The notes under the pieces were generated by a model. The model did no database searches. It was given only the letters and a program-made list of their open reading frames with translations, and was not told where the DNA came from. Positions 14,941 through 37,324 of a stretch of DNA of 64,000 nucleotides are shown here, piece by piece. Position 1 is the stretch's first letter; every line of letters starts with the position of its first letter. Source of the stretch: Thecaphora thlaspeos (taxonomy: Eukaryota > Basidiomycota > Ustilaginomycetes > Urocystidales > Glomosporiaceae); contig UWYS01000007.1 of assembly GCA_900291925.1 (NCBI GenBank), positions 558,001-622,000 of the forward strand, given 5' to 3'. The translations under genes and the position numbers were made by a program.

Positions 14941-15147
14941 ACCCTCGGGGAGACGCGTCGGCACGGTCGCCCTCCAGGCGACTTGAGGTGGGAGGTCCGG
15001 AAAATTACTCGCGCGAGACGCGTTCGGCGGCCGGTGGACACGTCGTGATGTGGAGGTCGGTCGCGTATTTACTCCGGCGAGACGCGTCATTTCCTGGAAC
15101 GCGTTGTGATTTAAAGGTGGGTCGCGCGTTTACTCGCGCGAGTAAAC
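14941..15147 (+). repeat. Tandem array X, ~61-64 bp units, CpG-rich
   Basis: Units start near 14944, 15008, 15072 and 15133, each containing CTC followed by a GC-rich box, in three cases with AGACGCGT. The block TTACTC recurs at 15005, 15069 and 15130, giving spacings of 64 and 61. The first unit is degenerate. The last truncated unit ends in a perfect 20-bp palindrome. Inverted partial copies (CACGCGTCTCGCGCGAGT and GAGTAAATCGACGCGTCG) lie at about 15445-15490. Confidence 0.85.
15128..15147. repeat. Perfect 20-bp palindrome
   Basis: The sequence reads the same on both strands, with the core TTTACTCGCGCGAGTAAA flanked by G and C. It closes array X and abuts array Y. Confidence 0.97.
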
Positions 15148-15153
15148 ATGGGA

Positions 15154-15305
15154 CGGCCAATCTGTAAGGGCAGCCCGACGTCTATGCGCGGTTCTTTCAC
15201 GCGCGCCGATTTTGTATTGGTCCAATTGCTGGGCCAGCCCGATTCGTATGTGCGGCTCTTTTCTGTGCGCCGATCTTGTATCGGCCAGTTTGTTTTGGCA
15301 GCCCG
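15154..15305 (-). repeat. Tandem array Y, 64-bp units, CpG intact
   Basis: The box CAGCCCG recurs at 15171, 15235 and 15299, exactly 64 bp apart, giving two full units and partial flanks. On the minus strand each unit contains a box of the type TACAA-ATCGGCGC followed by a CGGGCTG box. The same unit type occurs, with its CpGs lost, in the island at 30.3-32.8 kb. Confidence 0.9.
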
Positions 15306-16965
15306 GTGTTTAGTCGCGTCATCAGCGCCGGCGCCTCCGCCTCCCGCCCGAGTGAAGTCGCGGTCCTGCCGGTTGACCCGTCTCGTCCGATGAACGCGCG
15401 ACCAGGCGTATCTCCCTGTTGACTTGTGCGTCTTGCGACTTGCGGGAGTAAATCGACGCGTCGTCCTTTCACGCGTCTCGCGCGAGTACTTACGCTGGCT
15501 TTAAGACGGGTCGACAGGCCAATCGCATCTCTCGCGGCGACCAGAGCGGCCGAGCGTCGATCGGGGTCAGGGCAGAGGCAGGGTCTTTGTTTTGAGAGTT
15601 GGCCCACGGCTAGATTCACCCTGACCCCGCCCCCCTCTTTTTCCGGTCGGTCGCCCATTCGAGCGATGACAAGCGCGACGCTGACTCCTCCGTGATGGTG
15701 AGCGAAAGCTCGGACGGCTCACGACGCCATCGCATGAATAGCTAGCCTAACACCTTATGGATATCGAGCGAGATGAGCTCGTCGTCGAGTCGGGCCAGAG
15801 GTTGCCTCTGCCACAGCGTTCTGAATCGGCGTCCTGAACAGGAGAGGCCATGCATCGTGTTCCTCCACCTCTCATGAATTGGGTCGTTTGAGCCGCCACC
15901 CTCTGCCCAAGCGCATGCCTCGGACGTGAGCAACGTTGTTGCACTCTCCCTGGAACCTTCTTCTCTGGTGGCGTACAGGCAATTTTTCGTGGCATTCTTG
16001 GCCAAGTGCCGCTGGGGGCAGGGTACGGTGGTCCTATCTTCTCTGGCGCGACGAGCGCGAGGAGGTGCGAGCGCCTCCACGCCGCTGCACGAGGCCCGTC
16101 GGTGAGTCAGCGTATAGCAAACGTCTTTCGTCGGCGTGGCTTCCCGCTCCGCCCTTTCCGTGCCACAGCGGCTGTCTGGCTGTGGGGCCAAGGCGAGGCC
16201 TTGCTAAAATAAAAGTTTCTGAGGCTCAGCCAGAGTCGGGAAGACCCGAGATGACGCCCCCCCCCCCCCAGACAGGGCAGGCTCACCTAACACCACCCCA
16301 AAGAGGGGCCCACTCGCCCCACCTTCCTCTTCCCTCCTCCCATCATCATCACCTCCGCACCCGCCGCCACCCAGCGTCCAAGGGCCGCACCGGCCAGGGT
16401 AGAGACGACGCCAACCTTACAACACCGTTAGCCTTCTACATCACCTCGGCGACCCCCTCCATTCCCGGCACGCTCTCCGTGTCATTCTACGACCCTCTTC
16501 CTTCATCACCAGCCCTTGGACATCTCTAGGCTTGGACTTGACGGCACGCCACTCGGAACAAAAGACGCTAGTTTGCCGCTCCCTCTCGGCCGTCGCCGAC
16601 GTCTGCTACCACGGCTACCCTCATCGCTGCCCGCTCACTCCCTCGCCCTGCCTCTACAGCTCTTCGTTTATACACCCGAACCACGCCGAGGTCAGGCCTA
16701 CCCCCCCAACACCACGATAGATCTGCGTCCTCTCACCGGCCGACGCTCCCCCGTAGCCGGGACACGCTGGGCTGTGCTGGCGCCTCGCTTCTGATCGGAG
16801 TCGCTCTCGTCGTACGCGCCCACCGCTCTCAAGCCTCGTCATAGGTGGACTAGACAAGTCATCGCACACCGCCGCATCTCCCCGAGCATCGACCGACGCT
16901 CTTTTCAGCCCTTCCTTCTCCCTCTTCAAGCGGGTTCGCTAGACTTTGACGCGGAGCGACCGGTG

Positions 16966-20427: not shown

Positions 20428-20713
20428 GCCGGCGCGGTTGATGACGCGCCTCTGCGGTGCGGGGAGGAAACCAGGGTCCAGCGCTTGGACCCTCGAGCAG
20501 AATCTTGACCTTGAATGCTTACCTCAGCCCTTTTGGGGCAGCGGCAGCGGCAGCGGTGGCAAGGCCCAACGCAACACCTCGATCCCATCATCATCTTGCC
20601 TCGCCGCTTCGACCTTGCTCGCCACCTGCCTCCCCGTCCAGCGTGCAACCCTCGCAGACGATCCAACCTCCTCTCTCCCCTACCCACATCTGGCGCCCTA
20701 GCCAATCCGCACC

Positions 20714-21937
20714 ATGTCTACCGCCACCGCCACCACCAACTACAAGAATCTCGTCGTCGTCGGCGCCGCCTCTGGCATCGTGACTGCCAACATCCTCGCC
20801 GCCAAGCTCCCCTCTAGCCACCGACTCGTGCTGATCGAGGCCAACGAGGTCGCCTTCTGGCCTATTGGGGCTCTGCGCGCCGCCGTCGAGCCGGGCTTTG
20901 AAAAGGAAATCATCGCTCCTCTCGATCTCTTCAAGGGAACGCGCCACGTCGTACTCGCAAAGACGCGTGTCACCGCCCTCGAACCTTCGGCCGTCATCGT
21001 CGACAACGCCCCCAATGCCCAGCTCGGCCCCACCTCCAGCACGACTGACCACGGAGGACACCGCATCGAGTTTGACCGCATCGTCCTGGCGCTCGGCTCT
21101 TCGTACTCGTTCCCGAGTCGTGCCGTCGCACCGGAAGAGGCCAAAATCCTCCAATCCTTCCAGCAGGCTCAGAAGGATATCGAGCGCGCGCAACACCTCG
21201 TCGTCGTCGGTGGTGGACCGGTGGGCGTCGAGTTCGTGGGCGAAGTGTTGGAGCGTTTCCCACAAAAGGCAGAGAACATCACGCTCATCACGCGCTCCGA
21301 CCGGCTCGTATCAAAGGACGGCAAGCAGGAGGGCGTCCACCACAAGTTCTACTCCCAGCTCAACGCAAAGGGCGTCAAGATTCTGTTCGAGGATGAGATC
21401 GAATTCGGCCCAGACGTTCCCTTCAAGACGGGTCCGATCGAAGGTGGACCGAGGACGTTCATGACCAAGAACAACGGCACTTCCGTCCAGGCAGACTACC
21501 TTCTCGACGGGACGGGTGGGAAGCCCAACACGTCGCTGATTTCTTCCGTCGATCCGTCGATCCTCAACGATGTCGGCGCCATCAAGGTCGATGCCGCGCT
21601 CCGCGTCAAATCCTCCGAATCATCGACGTTCGACTGGTCGCGCTACCTTGCGACGGGGGACTGCAACGACCTCCCCTGCGCCAAGACGTGGTTCGCCGCA
21701 GAGGGCCAGGCAAAAACAGCCGCCAACAACATCCTCGAAATCATCAAGACCAGCAGCTGCGCTATGGGTCCCGTAAGGGTACAGGACGCCAGCCTACCGC
21801 CCAACATGATCGTTGTGCCGCTCGGCAAGAAGGGCGGAGCCTCGCAGCTCTTTGTCGTCTCGCTGGGTGGGTGGTTCACGAGCTTCGCAAAGGGAAAGAG
21901 CCTGTTCATCTCGCAGTTCAAGGCAAACTACAGGTAG
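20714..21937 (+). CDS. FSP1/AIF-like FAD-dependent NADH oxidoreductase
   Basis: Member of the pyridine nucleotide-disulphide oxidoreductase fold, closest by pattern to AIFM2/FSP1-type and fungal Aif1 proteins. These reduce quinones or act in redox-linked death pathways. Single exon, 407 residues. The first Rossmann motif at residues ~14-21 is VVVGAASGI, an atypical version of GxGxxG. The second, near residue 165, is the classical VVVGGGPVGVEF for NADH. The ATG box before the second FAD contact is LALGSSYSF, and LATGDCND precedes the C-terminal FAD-binding helix. The C-terminus (GGWFTSFAKGKSLFISQFKANYR) is the family's usual amphipathic tail. No obvious mitochondrial presequence is seen. Which physiological acceptor it uses cannot be told from sequence. 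Confidence 0.87.
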   Translation: MSTATATTNYKNLVVVGAASGIVTANILAAKLPSSHRLVLIEANEVAFWPIGALRAAVEPGFEKEIIAPLDLFKGTRHVVLAKTRVTALEPSAVIVDNAPNAQLGPTSSTTDHGGHRIEFDRIVLALGSSYSFPSRAVAPEEAKILQSFQQAQKDIERAQHLVVVGGGPVGVEFVGEVLERFPQKAENITLITRSDRLVSKDGKQEGVHHKFYSQLNAKGVKILFEDEIEFGPDVPFKTGPIEGGPRTFMTKNNGTSVQADYLLDGTGGKPNTSLISSVDPSILNDVGAIKVDAALRVKSSESSTFDWSRYLATGDCNDLPCAKTWFAAEGQAKTAANNILEIIKTSSCAMGPVRVQDASLPPNMIVVPLGKKGGASQLFVVSLGGWFTSFAKGKSLFISQFKANYR

Positions 21938-30303: not shown

Positions 30304-32822
30304 TGAGCGCACTCAGAATTGTACTGTAACTTACATGCATCTAATTCTCATAGCAGTGCAGGCTGCCTCCACATGAGACCAATGCAAGTGCCAGATTAGA
30401 AAGCCTTAACTCGGGAATAAAATCAACGCTACAAACGATATTCGATCTTGCCTGCAATTGGGCATATGATATTTAATCTAATTATATGCAAGGTGTTGGG
30501 CCTGGCCTTTCAAAATTAACTAACATCCCTGGCCCAAATTAAAAGCGGGTTAAATGGCAGTTATGGGTGAGGCATCCTCCCTATAAAAACTTTGGAGATT
30601 GTGTAGCTACAGGTGCTTGCACCTGAGGGCAAGCAGAAAATTGGCCCTGCATGTGCTTTTCCCCCATTGCCTGTAAAAATGCAAGAACCTGGAGCCATAG
30701 TAAAAGGTGCCACTTCCTACCATAGTTACAGCACCCAATTTTGGTGTTGCAACTCTGGAAAAAGATGTAGCTAGGTTTCTGATTTTCACTTATTGACTTG
30801 CAGCACTCTACCTAATAGTGTAGAAGCTCCAGGAAAACAGTATGAAGTAATTCCTTATTGAACTGAATATGCAGCCCCAATTGAACAAGCAGCCCACCAA
30901 AGCTGTTGACCCCAATCATGGATTGAAGGCACACTTACTGTAGCTACAGCTCCCAATCATTCAGCTGTGGCTTGCAATTTTATAACTGTGGCCCCAGAAA
31001 AGAAATGAGGTGTGGCCCCCTAATTGAATTGGAGGTGTGCAAACCCCAGTTGCCATTGGGATCCACCAAACAATGTCCTAACAACCAGGACCCTGAAAAT
31101 ACAAAATAGGAGCTGCCCTGAGTTGCCAAAACACTTGGGAGCCATAAATTAACATTCAGTGCAATGCAGCAAAGAAAAATTGGAGGTGCAAATACAAATC
31201 AGGGGCTGCATCATGCACACAAAAGAGCAGCTGCAACTACCAATTGGGCTGCCCAAACCAATTGGCCAATACAAAATTGGTGCACTTGAAAGGAGCCACA
31301 ACTACAAATTGGGCTGCTACATAAAATTGGCAAACCAGGCTGCATGAAAGAGGTGGTGCATAAAAATAAGCTGTCCCATAAAATTGGTTCATACAAAATT
31401 GGAGCACTCAAAAGATCTGCAATTGAAAATTGGGCTGCCCTGAAAAATTGGCCAATACAAAATTGGTGCATGTGAATGGTGCTGCAATTCCCAATTGGGC
31501 TGCCTCAATGCTTTGGCTGATACAAAATTGGCATGTGTGAGAGGATGCCATTAAAATCCAGGAGCTGCAGACACAAAAGTGGAAGCTGCCACATATTACC
31601 CTGACAATTGGGTGCTGCTGATACAAAGTTGGCCTGTTGCCCCAACAATTCCAGAGCTGCAAATACAAAACCAGGGTGTTCCCCTGGAAAACCAAAAGCC
31701 ACAATTACAAAATTGGGAGCCAATTTGCAATTGAATATAAAATCCTAGAGCAGCAAAACCAAATTGGGAGCAGTCTTGCATTTGCTCAAAAAAATTGGAG
31801 CTGCATATTTGGCAGCCACATCATGTTGCCTCAACAAACCTGAAGCTGTGATTACTAAATTGGGTGATGCAAATTTTTTAATTGGAAGCTGCTTCACATT
31901 GCTTCCATAGAAACCTGGAGCCACAAAACTTGTAAGGAAAATGTCTCATTGGGAACTGCATTGCCTGACCCAATACAAAAAAGATGCATTGGGTGCCACA
32001 ATTATTAAATTCTGGAGCTGCATACACAGGTCCCAATTGAGAACTAGGCCTATTGAGAGCCACAACTACAAATGCAAGTGTTGAAATGGCTAGATCTGAT
32101 TCTAAATCAAGTTCATTGGGAGCTGCAATGTGTCTTGTGTGTTTTGCCTTGGCACTGATCAAGGACATCTCTCACCAGGAGCCCCAACTCTTTGCCTATG
32201 AGACCACAATGAAGCACAATTACTCTTCATGAATTGGAAGCTGCAATGTTATGCATGACAAAGCTTATAAATTGCGCCCAAGTGAGAGTCTTGATGTATT
32301 GCATGTGTGACTGGTGCCACATGCATTTGCATGGCTGATGCAACACAGTGTGGAAGCAAAAAGTGTAATTACACTTGCACAAACATGCTGCCCTGACATA
32401 TTTGTTTAGATGTGGAGGTCAACCCCATATTTGCCAGTGCAATACACACCAGTTCAATTGATGCAACCTGATGTGGAGGTCAGCCATATGTTTAAGTGCA
32501 CAAGGCATGCATGCCTCAGCTAACACAGGAAGCTTCAGGACCTGCCCACAGTTAAAGCATCTTGGTGTTGGTGAGATTGTGCACTCATTTGCACAAGAAC
32601 TACAGGTGCCTACTTCACATGTGTTAACCCTGCCTGGCTGCAAAAATATTTGTGCAATACTTAAACCTGTTTTGCCATGGATACAAAGTTGCATGTTTAC
32701 CTGCCTGAAAATGGGGAGTGTAACAACAACCAATGAATGTGCCTTGGTGTGGATTTGAGGACATGTCTTGCATGAGACCTGTGGGCAAGTCTTGTGTTTT
32801 GCCCCAAACATAGGCCTTAAAT
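30304..32822. repeat. CpG-depleted AT-richer island with eroded satellite units
   Basis: A ~2.5 kb block with composition unlike the rest of the window. From the CpG at about 30546 to the one at 32823 I find a single CpG (near 32275). Flanking DNA has CpG in almost every 10-base group. Within it, ~64-bp tandem units can be followed by GGGCTGC boxes at 31246, 31311, ~31369, 31432 and 31497, then GAGCTGC at 31562. Weaker relatives extend to about 32050. Two further units of another kind start at 32409 and 32470 (GATGTGGAGGTC). Both kinds match the CpG-rich arrays at 14.9-15.3 kb after CG to TG/CA change. Open frames here are short and have no coding character. Confidence 0.92.
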
Positions 32823-36600: not shown

Positions 36601-37324
36601 CTACACCGAAGTGGCCGACCACGAGCGACTGGTGACGCGCATCGAAGAGGGCGAGGCCAAGCTGGCCAAACAGCAGGCGCAGGAGAGCATCCTCAAGAAA
36701 CGTGTCAACTCCTACCGTTCGCCCCTGACCCAGCTCAAGCTGACGTACGGCCAGGCTAAAGGAAAGAGCTACAGCGAGGAAGAGGATCGCTTCCTCCTCG
36801 TCAAGCTGGCAGAGTACGGCTTCAAGGAGGAAGTTTACGAGAAGATCAAGAGGGATGCGGCTGTCTTCCCCGGCTTTAGGTTTGACTGGTTCATCAAGTC
36901 GAGAACGCCACAGGAGATTGGGCGGCGGTGCAATACGTTGCTCCTCTTGGTCATGAAGGACGAGGAGGAGAGCAGGGGCGGCAAGGTGAGTGCGGCACGG
37001 CGCGAGGATGCTGTCGAGACAGATAGACACAGATGGACGCGGTGACTGATGCTTCTCTCTTCCTTTCTCTTCCTTTCTCTCCCTCTCTCCCTCTCTCCCT
37101 CTCTCCCTCTCTCCCTCTCTCCCTCTCTCCCTCTCTCCCTCTCTCCCTCTCTCCCTCTCTCCCTCTCTCCCCCTCCCGCCCTCATCCCCTCTCTTCATCC
37201 AACCCAGAAACGCGCCTCAGACGTCCACGCCAACGGCAACGGCGGGGCAAGCTCGCGCGGATCGACGCCCTCGGCTGCTGTGGCCGGAGGCGGCGGACCG
37301 AAGAGCAAGAAGCGCAAAGCCTGA
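33664..37324 (+). CDS. ISWI: ISWI-family chromatin-remodelling ATPase
   Basis: SNF2-family motor that slides and spaces nucleosomes. Exons are 33664..34854, 34979..36985 and 37208..37324 with GTGAGT donors; all junctions fall between codons. 1104 residues. Walker A GLGKT is at 250-254 and DEAH at 350-353. GTPLQNN follows; [16 protein letters not shown] is after the first intron. The helicase C-lobe contains [25 protein letters not shown] motif VI near 620-640. Then come the HAND region, a SANT domain ([18 protein letters not shown], ~889) and a SLIDE domain (~975-1060, ending [17 protein letters not shown]). The N-terminus carries acidic and coiled-coil segments. The last exon is a basic tail ending PKSKKRKA, a likely nuclear localisation signal. 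Whether it is an ISW1 or ISW2 orthologue is not resolved. Confidence 0.96.
37081..37170 (+). repeat. (CCCTCTCT)11 microsatellite in ISWI intron 2
   Basis: About eleven near-perfect 8-bp copies fill the polypyrimidine part of the 222-nt second intron (36986-37207), ending ~37 bases before the acceptor. Confidence 0.95.

Follow-up and report, generated by a model that had tools for sequence, protein, structure and literature searches.

Why has one stretch of a repeat family lost practically all of its CpG dinucleotides, while a relative on the same contig has kept them? This question was raised by a window of 64,000 nucleotides of Thecaphora thlaspeos (contig C7:558001-622000; coordinates given without a contig refer to this window), in which an initial annotation had described the reverse complement of 15235-15305 as the undamaged relative of a CpG-depleted repeat at 31245-31316. 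A global alignment of the two segments confirmed both the single gap and the mutational pattern: All seven CpGs of the first copy are gone from the second (4 C-to-T and 3 G-to-A changes, none kept), and 23 of 26 C and G residues outside CpG are the same in both copies, the other three being two transitions and one transversion. The similarity is also clearly better than that of shuffled sequence. The 71-mer gave a local score of 39, compared to a mean of 10.4 and a maximum of 17 for 1000 dinucleotide shuffles of it, a maximum of 15 for 300 shuffles of the CpG-dead block introduced below, and a maximum of 12 for 51 further stretches (2.4 kb each) of the window; for a longer piece (15100-15420) the score was 44 versus a maximum of 16 (300 shuffles). 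The proposed 64-bp spacing is genuine as well, with copies at 15154, 15218, and 15282.

Both loci are members of a family of CpG-rich, non-coding repeats, which is dispersed over many contigs and built of units of about 64 bp. In the genome searched (20,591,595 bp, 32 contigs), the intact copy has 21 matches including itself, and the motif TTACTYRYRYRAG occurs at 108 sites, compared to 7 for the reversed control; among the 100 of these 108 sites that were listed, there are 48 clusters. Because both loci are members of this family, their nearness is a coincidence: The distance of only 16 kb was stated correctly, but it has no significance given 21 matches in the genome and 108 motif sites. Likewise, the notion that one copy was mutated while the other escaped is right with respect to the damage and wrong with respect to a particular relation between the two copies.

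In order to describe the family, two unit types were modelled, A, which carries TTTACTCGCGCGAG, and B, which comprises 64 bp. An nhmmer search (E 0.01) over 269,788 non-overlapping bases, consisting of the window and further genome stretches, gave 147 rows for A, of which 138 are intact and 9 belong to dead blocks, and 37 for B, of which 25 are intact and 12 belong to dead blocks; as the intact loci had been chosen by their resemblance to the intact copy, they constitute a non-random sample. The previously annotated coordinates span just a part of an intact CpG-rich composite element (14945..15495, no strand assigned), which is made up of A units, B units, and an inverted A unit; its units and inverted arms were found by searching, its outer ends were set by eye. 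On the forward strand, it contains A units at 15005..15060 (E 1.8e-12) and 15068..15122 (E 2e-6), B units at 15155..15216 (E 4e-14) and 15222..15280 (E 6.9e-12), and a partial B unit at 15283..15321 (E 3.5e-5); the inverted A unit follows on the reverse strand at 15455..15488 (E 1e-4). The ratio of observed to expected CpGs is 1.61 in a 500-bp window of this element. A foldback-type comparison found opposed A units here (15003-15491) and at C5:587.3-587.8 kb, whereas other loci differ. The core of the A unit, TTTACTCGCGCGAGTAAA, is a near-perfect palindrome, which is present at 15121-15154 and at many intergenic-looking loci; a role in protein binding or as a hairpin is possible. Intact units are diverse and imperfect: In a leave-one-out comparison, the consensus C in CpG was kept in 808 of 976 cases in A and in 152 of 174 cases in B, and some intact units already have CCAAT-like variants. 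Autocorrelation gave a clear period of 64-65 in just two B arrays of dead blocks and no clear 64-bp period in the other stretches.

The damaged segment is part of an intergenic block on C7 (30447..32821, no strand assigned), which contains 2 CpGs compared to 111.5 expected and is delimited by edge CpGs at 30443 and 32823. TG plus CA reach an observed/expected value of 1.67 in this block; beyond it and its flanks, CpG values in the window range from 0.70 to 1.61 (500-bp windows). Four CpG-dead B units were located on its reverse strand by means of nhmmer and alignment to the intact consensus (31215..31267, which is partial, 31270..31331, 31392..31453, and 31456..31517), and a partial A unit was located on the forward strand (32444..32480) by family-unit alignment to the intact consensus. 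Three blocks, on C2, C7, and C13, were examined at the letter level. The C2 block at about 97.3-99.3 kb has 18 CpGs compared to 114.9 expected in a generously chosen interval, and 8 compared to 106 in its core (sum of three segments); the C13 block (515.1-517.08 kb) has 10 compared to 110.4. In all three, TG and CA are raised, CpG is the sole dinucleotide that is nearly absent, and the GC content is below that of the surroundings. A CpG observed/expected value below 0.3 was found in 12 of the 539 500-bp windows of the DNA covered; ten of these belong to the three blocks, and the other two are telomeric starts of contigs. Where the blocks contain no A or B units, they are equally CpG-poor (30447-31180 on C7, 1 versus 34.8 expected; 515104-515970 on C13, 4 versus 48.5), an observation in favour of a process that acts block by block; some short segments of 30447-31180 resemble other, intact DNA on C11. 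What had been described as a damaged copy is indeed damaged; the damaged unit is, however, a block of about 2 kb and not a single repeat copy, and the run on C2 mixes intact and dead units. A genome scan for the motif with lost CpGs gave 69 sites, compared to 27 for the control, and clusters of such sites indicate further candidate blocks at C18:21041-23455 (8 sites) and C2:123423-124250 (3 sites).

For the determination of the mutation spectrum, a consensus was built from 163 intact alignment rows and compared with the 21 rows from the three dead blocks; nhmmer rows with E >0.01 and sites with a consensus below 60% were left out. The damaged rows retain 3 of 155 consensus CpGs. In B units, 2 of 86 CpG cells are preserved and 76 were converted (48 to CA, 28 to TG); in A units, 1 of 69 remains and 54 were converted (28 to CA, 26 to TG). 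Transitions of C or G outside CpG are no more frequent in damaged than in intact units (B: 20/205 versus 33/420, p 0.45; A: 16/117 versus 162/1497, p 0.36); these tests assume independent units, which the units are not, and it is the effect sizes rather than the p-values that carry the argument. The direction of mutation and its CpG context, deduced earlier from a single pair, are upheld at the level of the family, and in the aligned family units C and G outside CpG are not altered as often as those within it. The direction is supported by neighbouring C2 units that differ at the same CpG, one having turned it into TpG and another into CpA; the reverse course, with TpG and CpA both converging on CpG, is hardly plausible. 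Since neighbouring units differ in outcome at the same site, much of the C2 damage postdates the formation of the array. The four B units on C7 resemble each other more than the C2 units do.

Individual units have lost their CpGs in a nearly all-or-nothing fashion. With at least three informative sites required, which removed one of the 21 damaged rows, the distribution of CpG retention is bimodal: 17 of 20 damaged units fall into the 0 bin and three into the 0.2 bin, and a retention of at least 0.6 was found for 159 of 163 intact units. Four rows, on C4, on C14, at C2:99429 (a block edge), and at C13:481.2 kb (0/3), keep at most half of their CpGs and were counted as intact. A similar picture emerged from the motif sites (100 of 108 listed): Outside the C2 and C13 blocks, 67 of 92 retain all three CpGs and two retain none; within these blocks, seven of eight are without any CpG.

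The damage also depends on the neighbouring base. At sites of aligned damaged units with TCG on one strand alone, the TCG strand was hit 48 times and the opposite strand 7 times (C7 15:0, C2 23:6, C13 10:1), and this lean was seen at all six sites. The corresponding ratio in intact units is 33:17 (Fisher p 0.011 for the difference from damaged units); consequently, part of the bias may be old variation in the family. An alignment-free determination of the share of T in NTG gave 182/487 for C7, 143/437 for C13, and 153/524 for C2, the last being barely above the intact arrays (395/1367); this count backs a TCG preference for C7 and C13 but not for C2. As CpGs without TCG on either strand were lost equally completely, the preference concerns which strand was hit and not which sites were spared.

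The C2 block lies within a run of the same repeats and has intact units on either side. On its left flank, the B units at 97030-97141 are intact (5 kept/0 lost and 6 kept/1 lost); CpGs then thin out to 97339, and A- and B-type units are dead until about 99.2 kb. On the right, CpGs are dense from 99335 onwards, and two A units are found there, at 99429 (3 kept/4 lost) and 99587 (6 kept/2 lost). Both edges within this run are a few hundred bases wide. The edges on C7 and C13 are sharp; no A or B unit was found just outside these two blocks, so that their edges are not comparable unit by unit. Array length as a trigger found no support: The long arrays on C4 (13.3-17.8 kb; 550 CpGs compared to 379 expected) and C6 (about 4.8-6.6 kb; observed/expected 1.6-1.7) are intact, and therefore neither membership in the family nor length is decisive. 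These observations suggest that position, not sequence, decided which units died.

The explanation we favour, with a probability of roughly 0.6, is that CpG methylation was maintained locally and that C-to-T mutation then followed. In a small number of blocks, each about 2 kb long, CpGs would have become methylated and remained so, their state being kept up by DNMT5 and a DNMT1-type enzyme. Methylated C of both strands would then have been replaced by T, preferentially in TCG, until hardly any CpG was left; intact arrays of the same repeat would never have been methylated, or only briefly. The methylation and its persistence are read from the DNA sequence here, as is the nature of the C-to-T step, which may have been spontaneous or enzyme-driven. 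A strong preference for TCG is not readily explained by plain decay of 5-methylcytosine. It also weighs against the methylation reading that this preference is weaker in the intact-unit and alignment-free counts, that units within a block are non-independent, and that the blocks examined number three.

A PF00145 profile search of the genome gave two gene loci, of which one resembles DNMT5 and the other DNMT1. At C4:56009-60268, a 2575-aa open frame has a DNMT5-type methylase domain and two SNF2 matches; over 1169 aa, this frame matches PDB chain 7r76 (703 bits). This chain is labelled Rad8 in the database, and we take it to be the DNMT5 of Cryptococcus. Such an identity fits a review that describes DNMT5-maintained methylation in Cryptococcus (PMC13297926). 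At C21:100353-103628, a methyltransferase domain extends over two frames and is closest to DNMT1; the gene is apparently split by introns. A BAH-like stretch was noticed by eye upstream of it. Another review reports Ustilago maydis to be without DNMT genes, although it lists 2.26% methylation for this species (PMC7862722).

Due to the TCG preference, there is room for a RIP-like process proper, which would be premeiotic, triggered by homology, and directed preferentially at TpCpG; a few sexual cycles would suffice, and methylation would have come later or never. The strand ratio of 48:7, seen in all three blocks and at six of six sites as in Pucciniomycotina (PMC5381629), is in agreement with such a process, and so are the near-complete loss of CpGs and the sharp edges on C7 and C13. 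We nevertheless regard it as unlikely, though worth serious consideration: Other multi-copy arrays of the family, several kilobases in size, are intact, the dead C2 block is adjoined by intact units, CpGs without TCG on either strand were lost as fully, and the genes found to have a DNMT domain are DNMT5-like and DNMT1-like only. A RID-like gene was not found in this one Pfam search (PF00145), which a diverged gene could escape. RIP of the Neurospora type, with C-to-T changes mainly at CpA, does not fit, as the loss is at CpG, CA is raised in the blocks, and the same search found no RID gene.

The similar size of the blocks (about 2-2.4 kb), their position in intergenic DNA or away from recognised gene sequence, the occurrence of one block each on C7 and C13, and the lowered GC content might also point to a functional role, for instance as centromere cores, with selection keeping CpG low and AT high. 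This is improbable, as relative to the intact family the loss is a pure CpG transition, which selection for AT would not give; moreover, motif clusters mark a second candidate on C2 (123.4-124.3 kb), and a block was examined on just 3 of 32 contigs. Still harder to maintain is a chance similarity, or descent of the blocks from an ancestor that never had these CpGs. The diversity of intact units, some with CCAAT-like variants, and the block parts without a recognised A or B unit would be compatible with it; the alignment score far above shuffles, the differing outcome, TG or CA, of adjacent units at a shared CpG, and the rise of TG and CA throughout the blocks are not, and the CpG-loss spectrum relative to the intact consensus contradicts it, leaving it a very small chance of being true.

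RIP-like TpCpG hypermutation in Microbotryum and other Pucciniomycotina was reportedly described by Horns et al. in 2012. The RIP-like TpCpG hypermutation of Microbotryum and the Pucciniomycotina (PMC5381629) resembles our case in that both strands undergo C-to-T changes at CpG, preferentially in TCG. The targets described for it are transposable elements, of which each copy has taken few hits, whereas here, in another subphylum, nearly every CpG of non-coding repeat arrays was lost, with or without TCG. The literature searched describes a TCG-preferring mutation step for Pucciniomycotina, and none was found in it for Ustilaginomycotina. CpG depletion of smut repeats is already known: Ustilago hordei and U. 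bromivora possess repetitive regions without CpG, read as possible RIP (PMC5106213), and the three blocks are depleted in the same manner. Those data stem from a genome-wide RIPCAL comparison of repeats; in contrast, we deal with single non-coding arrays of 64-bp units, an intact family as control, and block edges inside a run, and many other copies of the family are, unlike the three dead blocks, not CpG-depleted. What is new is the bounded CpG-dead island inside one repeat run, with intact sister units as control.

In basidiomycetes, a CpG mutation signature has been tied to genes of the Masc2/DNMT1 class, and deamination of methyl-cytosine was proposed (PMC4352252). We likewise find CpG-only mutation together with a DNMT1-type gene, and, unlike in those systems, a DNMT5 gene as well; a text search of that paper did not find Ustilaginomycotina by name. 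For the rust Austropuccinia psidii, CpG depletion was ascribed to deamination of 5mC rather than to RIP (PMC12774611), which parallels the decay of methylated CpG considered here. There, transposons are affected genome-wide in a giant genome, whereas here the islands are isolated, and the genome is compact and has a CpG observed/expected value near 1. Cryptococcus maintains CpG methylation by means of DNMT5 (PMC13297926) and shares with our case the DNMT5 gene and a proposed local state that would outlast many generations; differences are the additional DNMT1-type gene and methylation deduced from base changes.

It is conceivable, at slightly less than even odds, that the dead blocks represent fossil remains of stable epigenetic islands, with two heritable states within one repeat run. 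If this were true, a boundary between methylated and unmethylated DNA, a few hundred bases wide, would have held until one side had lost about 98% of the consensus CpGs and the other side few. A smut fungus would then possess a position-bound epigenetic memory, perhaps together with an enzyme-driven, TCG-preferring mutation step. Intact and CpG-dead copies side by side in a compact genome provide a clean natural experiment, which allows direction, strand, and neighbour context of mutation to be read without coding selection. Two questions can thereby be tested in one organism, namely whether the TpCpG "RIP" of basidiomycetes is in fact methylated CpG undergoing decay, and how sharp the boundaries of fungal DNA methylation can be within a run of like repeats.

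Retroelement remnants were considered as a further sign of CpG damage, and this idea was dropped. In-frame stops in reverse transcriptase matches (PF00078; examples are C9:662626-663108 and C13:678897-679379) are 10 TGA, 1 TAG, and 0 TAA, which suits a CGA-to-TGA change; integrase matches are mixed (4 TGA, 6 TAG, 1 TAA), and the read-through introns of SNF2 genes likewise have TGA stops only (4). CCCTAA/TTAGGG repeats occur at both ends of C2 and C7, and also at the starts of C4 and C14; because of the repeats at both ends, C2 and C7 at least look like complete chromosomes. Rfam and tRNA scans gave nothing in the window, and one exact 19-base motif had no match in viral contigs. A protein encoded at 20702-21934 has 72% identity to a Pseudozyma flocculosa protein and 57% to a Thecaphora frezii protein. 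Just beyond the end of an SNF2-family gene (about 33.5-37.0 kb), there is a near-perfect array of TCTCTCCC with 12.5 copies (37076-37175).
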